Below, piece after piece: positions 9,949 through 56,891 of a stretch of 64,000 bases of DNA (within the stretch, counting starts at the first letter, position 1; each line of letters starts with the position of its first letter). The DNA is from Bacillota bacterium. Its GTDB lineage: Bacteria; Bacillota; SHA-98; UBA4971. The stretch is taken from NCBI GenBank assembly GCA_030024085.1, contig JASEJE010000009.1, positions 1-64,000 on the forward strand, written 5' to 3'. The notes under the pieces were generated by a model, which made no database searches, had not been told where the DNA came from, and saw nothing but the letters and a program-made list of their open reading frames with translations. A program made the position numbers and the translations under genes.

Positions 9949-10012
9949 GCAGCCTGTGCAGCCTGTGCAGCCTGTGCAGCCTGTGCAGCCTGTGCCGCCT
10001 GGGCCAGGCTGG
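9949..10012. repeat. 9-bp tandem repeat (GCCTGTGCA, about 5 copies plus degenerate unit)
   Basis: cagcctgtgcagcctgtgcagcctgtgcagcctgtgcagcctgtgccgcc. Confidence 0.95.
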
Positions 10013-27562: not shown

Positions 27563-27679
27563 CTAGAAGTCCGCTCCAAAACCCGTCGCTCTTCAGTGGA
27601 CACCACGCTAACACTCCGCGCATCAAGGCGTACAGGACGCCTTGATAGGTTCAGGAGGCGTTCTGGAGCAGGCTTCTAG
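27563..27679. repeat. ~117-bp imperfect palindrome with internal 10-bp perfect hairpin
   Basis: CTAGAAGTCCGCTCCA...TGGAGCAGGCTTCTAG ends; inner ATCAAGGCGT-ACAGG-ACGCCTTGAT at 27622-27646. Confidence 0.75.
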
Positions 27680-28284
27680 TACTACTTTGTCAGATACGAA
27701 ATGCCACCCGGCCTCGTGGGCCTGGCGGGCTTGTCTGGCATGGCGACTCCTCGCCCCGGTGGTCCTTGACCGTGCACTCCCTGGAGGACCCGTGATGTAC
27801 GGAACGCGTAAGGTGGAAGTAGTGATATACGTCAGCAGTTGGATTCGACGCGTGACGAAGAGAACGCGTAATGCCAGGACCAGTGATGTACATCAGTCGA
27901 TCGTTCCCAATGATGACGTAGGGAACGGCTCAGGAGGAATCCGTGATGTGCGTCACTCGTCCCGGCTCGACGAGTGACCTATGGAACGATGCATGGAGAA
28001 CCCGTGACGGAGGGAACGGATAAGGCGGGAACGATGACGCACGTCACCGATTGGCTCCTGATGCGTGACGTGCAGAACGGGAAGAGCCTGACGAGTGACG
28101 TAGGTCACGCGTCCCCTGGCACGTGTGACGTTGGGAACGGGTAGGGCCGTGACCAGTGAGGTACGTCACCCGATAGCCCTCAATGATGACATAGGGAACG
28201 CTTAACGAAAAACCCGTGACGTACGTCAGCTGTCAGCTCAAGCGACGGCAGTACCAGGAGATCCATACGTAACAGAGTAGTACT
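27677..28284. mobile_element. ORF-less element with short terminal inverted repeats and phased palindrome array (copy 1)
   Basis: Ends AGTACTACTTTGTCAGATACG / rc AGTACTACTCTGTTACGTA; TGA-motif starts at 27793, 27823, 27853, 27884, 27914, 27944, 27975, 28005, 28035, 28066, 28096, 28126, 28157, 28187, 28217. Confidence 0.8.
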
Positions 28285-28483
28285 GGGTGCGAGTTCGGAA
28301 AGGGGCGCCACTTTTCCAGGTGCTCGTGGTGCTCGGGCGACGGGGCCTTTGACGTTTGACGGAGGACCGCAGAGCCGGCGAGCCGGAACACGCTGACGAA
28401 ATGGCGGAGACTAACGAACCTGCACTCGTCCGCACGAAAGCCGGCCGCGTGGCGCACGCCTCGACGGAGAAGGCCGATGGTTG

Positions 28484-50123: not shown

Positions 50124-50828
50124 AGGACTGCTCTGTCAGATACGAAATGCCATCCGGTTTGGCGGGCCTGGCGAGCTTATCTGGCAGGGCGACCCCTGGC
50201 CCTGGTGGCCCTTGACCGTGCAGTTCCCAGGAAACCCGTGATGTACGGAACGGGTGCCGCAGAAAGAGTGATGTACGTCAGCAGTCGGTTTCTATGCGTG
50301 ACGCAGGGAACGGGTAAGGCCGGGACCGGTGATGTACATCAGCGGATGGCTCTCAATGATGACGTAGGGAACGGCTCAGGAGGAACCCGTGATGTACGTC
50401 ACTGGTCCCGCTTCGACGAGTGACGTATGGAACGATTCATGGAGAACCCGTGATGCAGGGAACGGGTAAGGCGGCAACAATGATGTACGTCACCGATTGG
50501 CTCCCGATGCGTGACGTATGGAACGGGAAGAGCCTGACGAGTGACGTGCGTCATCCTTCCCCTTGCATGTGTGATGTAGGGAACGGGTAAAGCCCGGACC
50601 AGTGATGTACATCAGGGGATGGTTCTCAAGCGTGACGCAGGGAACGGTTGAGGAGCGACCCGTGACGTACGTCACCCGTCGGCTCAAGTGACGGTGCTAT
50701 TGTGCTACGTATGCATCCCTTGGCAAGACTGCGCTGTCAAAGGCCACCAGAGCAAGGACTTGGTCCATCAAATGGGCTTGCCAGACCCGCCGAATTGGAT
50801 AGCATTACGCATCTGGTAAAGTAGTATT
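50124..50828. mobile_element. ORF-less element with ~50-bp imperfect terminal inverted repeats and phased palindrome array (copy 2)
   Basis: Left AGGACTGCTCTGTCAGATACGAAATGCCATCCGGTTTGGCGGGCCTGGCGAGC vs rc right AATACTACTTTACCAGATGCGTAATGCTATCCAATTCGGCGGGTCTGGCAAGC; TGA-motif starts at 50239, 50269, 50299, 50330, 50360, 50390, 50421, 50451, 50481, 50512, 50542, 50572, 50603, 50633, 50663. Confidence 0.85.

Positions 50829-53390: not shown

Positions 53391-56891
<3,501 letters not shown>

Follow-up and report, generated by a model that had tools for sequence, protein, structure and literature searches.

The window, i.e., the whole 64,000-nucleotide stretch of DNA of this Bacillota bacterium that we have analysed, has two copies of an element with a long array of short, palindrome-like sites, and copy 1 is located in the interval between the genes for tRNA-Lys and superoxide dismutase. 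The coordinates of both copies and their parts are listed in Table 1. As the sequence-only reading had described, the 15 monomers of copy 1 are spaced by 30, 30 and 31 bp in repetition, exactly to the base, and no ORF crosses the array. Autocorrelation of the region gave peaks at 91 (0.417), 182, 121, 61 and 30 bp. The proposed alternation of two types of site, a palindromic type (P) and a type with a different second half-site (G), was also confirmed, including the G-G doublet at 27975/28005, in the order G P G P G P G G P G P G P G P.

Table 1. Features of the two element copies in the window
Feature	Position	Strand	Basis or remark
Left target-like tetranucleotide CTAG (YTAR context), copy 1	27676..27679	.	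Sequence; equals right end of neighbouring 117-bp repeat
Copy 1 of the IS701-type MITE, ~603 bp	27680..28282	+	24-copy alignment boundary, end listing, empty site in relatives
Left terminal inverted repeat TACTACTTTGTCA	27680..27692	+	Alignment and end listing
Leader, copy 1; conserved among copies, several indels between copies	27693..27791	+	
Phased array, 15 sites (GTGA-N6-TCA or GTGA-N6-GAAC)	27792..28229	+	TGA starts 27793 to 28217
Tail, copy 1	28230..28269	+	Alignment
Right terminal inverted repeat, minus strand reads TACTACTCTGTTA	28270..28282	-	End listing
Right target-like tetranucleotide CTGG, one mismatch vs CTAG	28283..28286	.	
Copy 2, ~701 bp; inverted leader-like stretch replaces usual tail at right end	50126..50826	+	
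Copy 2 array, 15 phased sites	50238..50676	+	TGA starts 50239 to 50663, phase 30-30-31 as in copy 1

The array is not a single locus but the interior of a MITE of approximately 603 bp, composed of leader, array and tail. In the general layout, a 13-bp terminal inverted repeat (TACTGCTCTGTCA and its complement) encloses a leader of approximately 110 bp, the array and a short tail, all in a CTAG/YTAR context; there is no coding capacity for a transposase, and no ORF spans the element. When copy 2 was used as a query against the source genome (G000, 3.11 Mb), 57 matches at approximately 45 places were obtained, copy 2 itself counted in, and the 24 long copies that were aligned have sharp common boundaries and unrelated flanks. 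The tRNA-Lys/superoxide dismutase interval around copy 1 is 1,212 bp long here but measures 99 bp in G002, a sister genome; in G003 and G004, too, the two genes are close together and the element is absent. Since this site is empty in relatives, copy 1 is an insertion. MITEs of only 125-149 bp that share these inverted ends but lack an array are also present (L077:3908-4044, L080:4165-4289, L083:4195-4343 and L085:950-1087), and the array is therefore not strictly required for movement.

The sequence-only reading, which had treated the array by itself, missed that it is the cargo of a MITE, and its suggestion of a partition-like role finds no support, given approximately 45 dispersed copies within a transposable element that has no plasmid match. 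For the same reason of copy number, a unique partition or scaffold locus was rejected: a partition site is expected in few copies beside par genes, and the genes next to copy 1 are those for tRNA-Lys and superoxide dismutase. A phage or plasmid origin was also rejected after searches of viral contigs (with one exact pattern) and plasmids gave no match.

Two observations concern the surroundings of the copies. A 117-bp repeat (27563-27679) with inverted ends CTAGAAGTCCGCTCCA/TGGAGCAGGCTTCTAG directly adjoins copy 1, and the CTAG is common to both; G002, G003 and G004 have similar, dispersed copies of this repeat. Truncated arrays without leader in L048 and L046 (G000:C18 and C10) adjoin apparent ends of protein-coding genes, which suggests that deletions fused decayed elements to neighbouring genes.

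The phase is well kept and was present in nearly all of approximately 42 parsed copies. In these, 504 adjacent steps measure 30 or 31 bp, while about four single steps deviate (28, 28, 33 and 38), and the phase is retained in arrays of 15, 18 and 21 monomers, the lengths of which differ by a 91-bp G-G-P trimer; an 18-monomer copy is present in G004 too. Such evenness is far beyond chance, with the qualification that the copies share descent. Since there are also internal duplications (monomers 3-5 and 12-14 of the array have 93-100% identity at a 273-bp offset), the regular spacing is partly inherited and does not amount to 14 independent coincidences. The even phase is naively 1 in 1001 orderings, but the duplications reduce the number of independent steps, and it has not been counted as evidence. 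The 30-30-31 rule stands for this one element family, a restriction that had been missed, and does not stand as a universal rule because related arrays elsewhere run at 30 bp. Likewise, the earlier idea that the sites lie on roughly one face of the DNA is not supported: at 10.5 bp/turn, the 30.33-bp period drifts by -40 degrees from one site to the next, which adds up to -560 degrees over the array, and thus only neighbouring sites face similarly.

The ends of the element allow its affiliation. In G016, a broken IS701-type transposase gene lies between ends of very similar sequence (1,342 bp), and in G013, one such end is found beside an open transposase frame of 425 aa with a score of 396.8 bits against NF033540, the IS701 equivalog model; both genomes belong to other families of the same class, not to this genus. 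Since the ends match those found with IS701-family transposase frames, the element is an IS701-type MITE. No transposase of IS701's Pfam family was found in G000-G005, so that the partner is missing, lost or unassembled there. IS701 insertion produces a 4-bp YTAR target duplication, and exact YTAR duplications were still present for only 4 of 17 copies (p = 0.02 for matched bases). With IS701-family insertion sequences (NCBIfam NF033540), the element has in common terminal inverted repeats that are nearly identical and a target context resembling YTAR, while the transposase is absent and the interior is the array; neither GTGA-N6-TCAC nor GTGA-N6-GAAC is present in the two autonomous IS701 elements that were examined.

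Comparison of 18 copies has revealed purifying constraint on the cores of the sites. Core bases differed in 21 of 2,034 cases (1.0%) and linker bases in 363 of 2,016 (18%), i.e., the cores are approximately 18-fold less variable, where the core is defined as A at -4, TGA, and TCA or GAAC; the last three were taken from the monomer consensus and not from cross-copy conservation, and position -4 joined the set after inspection. The N6 between the half-sites is about as variable as the linker. For variants common to several copies, the values were 0.3% in cores and 14.8% in linkers (approximately 50-fold, p = 6e-86), and for variants private to one copy 0.7% and 3.2% (approximately 4-fold, p = 9e-9). 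This contrast between core and linker indicates that the sites are constrained and are not inert repeats. Among 19 aligned copies, two indels were found in approximately 435 array positions vs approximately ten in the leader of approximately 108 bp, at similar substitution divergence (17.7% and 22.7% in array and leader, respectively), although the exact indel ratio should not be pressed because of short repeats in the leader and a bias of the alignment towards well-preserved copies. Judged from these sequence comparisons, a protein-binding array, as had been proposed, is well supported, and conserved half-sites with a free N6 are the pattern expected of a dimeric protein that would contact two half-sites one helical turn apart. 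The stronger constraint on shared than on private variants points to selection for propagation more than for use by the host after insertion.

Related arrays with the same palindromes were found in two other families of the class, at about five loci in G015 (f2) and six in G016 (f3). They are mostly of the P type and spaced by 30 bp, occasionally by 31, 33 or 38 bp, and 30-30-31 was rejected as a general rule on this ground. Their cores are the same and their linkers have diverged, and IS701 ends are absent where examined. Several G016 arrays share their own flanks and therefore look like another dispersed repeat; with related arrays on this second kind of repeat, the array itself may be a module that can be transferred, although we consider the wider proposal to which this idea belongs (see below) rather unlikely. 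When 399 genomes of the phylum were scanned, phased P-P pairs were restricted to members of this class, apart from one isolated match in G058, which was taken as chance. The exact G-P pair was found, among 85,462 genomes, only in UBA6811, AS02xzSISU_21 and two Bacteroidia matches (L088 and L089), and the latter two were regarded as chance because no array surrounds them. In G015:C8 (L103:1960-2010 and 2480-2740), a related array adjoins an apparent single CRISPR repeat (GTCGCGCCCCACGCGGGCGCGTGGATTGAAAC) and has as its neighbour another array of palindromes, which are CTGCCAAGATTCTTGGCAG-like and likewise spaced by approximately 30 bp.

Concerning the protein that may bind the array, GTGA-N6-TCAC is the geometry of CRP/FNR operators, for which the E. 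coli consensus is TGTGAnnnnnnTCACA and the M. tuberculosis CRP site is similar (PMC4005916). The P monomers fit this palindrome with a free N6, and the site geometry is therefore CRP-like, but the outer T/A of the consensus are nearly absent and only about half of the P monomers have C at position 13. In the G monomers (8 of 15), the second half-site is a strictly conserved GAAC instead of TCAC, and a match of both half-sites is therefore not found in all monomers. A further difference from the operators described for CRP/FNR (TGTGA-N6-TCACA; PMC4005916) is that at least 15 sites stand here in tandem.

In every genome of the genus, a single strong CRP-family match is prominent. In G000, this protein of 231 aa contains the domains cNMP_binding and HTH_Crp_2, and among solved structures those of M. 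tuberculosis CRP are closest to it. The recognition helix in the genus, TRETVTR, retains the residues with which E. coli CRP reads GTGA, namely arginine, glutamate and arginine. Upstream of the FecR-like/crp operon, each of the six genus genomes has a site with at least 9 of the 10 bases of TGTGA-N6-TCACA; GTGA-N6-TCAC is intact in every one of these sites, among which five different N6 occur, so that the same core as in the array precedes the host crp operon. Furthermore, TGTGA-N6-TCACA occurred 26 times in four genus genomes, vs twice for a reversed control. From the helix, the operon sites and these counts, the host regulator probably reads the half-sites of the P monomers, and binding of GTGA-N6-TCAC by the host CRP-family protein is supported, though not proven. 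The GAAC of the G monomers may be explained by a second factor or by a relaxed second half-site. As for the operon itself, the crp gene comes after the FecR-like gene in the genus (L160, L155, L157 and L158), and in L160 and L158 crp is in turn followed by a gene for a very acidic protein rich in Asp and Asn.

The explanation that we consider moderately probable is a non-autonomous IS701-type MITE with a phased operator-like array, most simply read as sites for the host's own CRP/FNR-family protein, the most likely use of which is to make the element more compact and to promote its spread. Somewhat unlikely, in our judgement, is the binding of another dimeric protein, such as a transposition accessory or nucleoid protein, with only a coincidental resemblance to CRP. 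The conserved GAAC half-sites and the A at -4, which are not hallmarks of CRP, would fit such a protein, as would the location of 45 of the 46 perfect P sites of this genome inside element copies; however, half-sites and spacing are the same as in the conserved sites that precede the crp operon of the host, and both site types are lacking in the examined autonomous IS701 elements.

If the host CRP-family protein does bind, the benefit might instead be on the side of the host, with the array selected after insertion as a regulator sponge, an operator cluster or a DNA-shaping site. This would be in accord with more than 500 array sites compared with 5-8 perfect TGTGA-N6-TCACA sites per genus genome, with the rarity of private as well as shared variants in the cores, and with the related arrays that lack IS701 ends in other families. 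We regard it as unlikely, since the constraint is much stronger on shared than on private variants, no match to the element was found in G005, a genome of the same genus, and sister species vary widely in the number of copies.

An inert minisatellite trapped in a MITE, to which nothing in particular binds and whose regular spacing would be due to descent from a master copy, appears quite improbable. Shared descent, internal duplications and the 91-bp trimer expansions speak for it, and minisatellites in bacterial MITEs have been shown by BrickBuilt (PMC4596501), but the large difference between cores and linkers was observed in the same monomers and copies, indels are rare in the array relative to the leader, and the arrays of other families keep the cores despite diverged linkers. 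A structured non-coding RNA of repeated hairpins is very improbable because the palindromic sites alone produce the kind of folding by which the consensus exceeds shuffles on both strands (z -7.6 and -9.3), compensatory changes were found in only 8 of 131 consensus pairs (covariation term -2.1), and no Rfam match in the array and no promoter- or terminator-like match in a simple scan were obtained.

For the preferred reading, a MITE carrying host CRP-family sites, a mechanism can be proposed. The footprint of one CRP dimer is about 30 bp, and the array could therefore be filled end to end. Tandem binding would bend and compact the approximately 436 bp between the two ends of the element; when a bend of 80-90 degrees per dimer is assumed, the 30.33-bp spacing at 10.5 bp/turn would result in a left-handed coil with approximately four sites per turn, i.e., 3.7-4 turns in 15 sites, whereas an exact three-turn spacing (31.5 bp) would give a flat closed ring. 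Such compaction would bring the element ends together, and with the ends juxtaposed, mobilisation by a trans-acting IS701 transposase might be easier. The strength of the constraint seen for shared variants suggests that the sites are important during the spread of the element. The complete proposal, in which spread depends on a global regulator of the host, with CRP-family dimers on 15-21 sites forming a left-handed coil and transposition being tied to the metabolic state, is tentative, and we consider it rather unlikely to hold in all its parts.

Repeated sites within transposons are known from subterminal transposase-binding repeats in Tn7 ends and in plant Ac/Ds and En/Spm, where internal sites are needed for mobility. 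The present array resembles these in being made of repeated sites inside a transposon and differs in that it fills most of the element and that the likely binder is a host regulator, not a transposase. The closest precedent is the minisatellite-MITE BrickBuilt of Porphyromonas gingivalis, which established that a minisatellite, together with a leader and a tail, can form part of a bacterial MITE (PMC4596501). Both elements have a leader, a tandem-repeat array, a tail, short inverted-repeat ends and many intergenic copies; BrickBuilt has a 23-nt repeat unit without spacers, whereas the present element has a unit of approximately 30.33 bp, two alternating site types, conserved cores, variable linkers and IS701-type ends. 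Our literature search found no paper linking MITEs with CRP sites and nothing exactly like this element. New here are the phased operator-like sites under purifying selection, their two alternating types, the IS701-type ends and the related arrays on other repeats. This would be a bacterial MITE with a long, selectively maintained operator-like cargo instead of an inert repeat, with more than 500 potential regulator sites scattered over one 3.1-Mb genome. Recruitment of a host regulator for movement, swamping or rewiring of a regulon, and DNA compaction by a phased CRP array thus become testable questions.

Other repeats were also noted. Another dispersed repeat family of approximately 200 bp is present in the same genome (L077:2926-3133, L077:4760-4955, L079:1163-1369 and L080:806-1030). 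Within the window, a 9-bp unit, GCAGCCTGT, is repeated 5.9 times at 97% identity at 9949-10001, and another 9-bp unit, GGAGATCCC, is repeated 11.6 times at 54654-54757, inside a frame of 1,166 aa.
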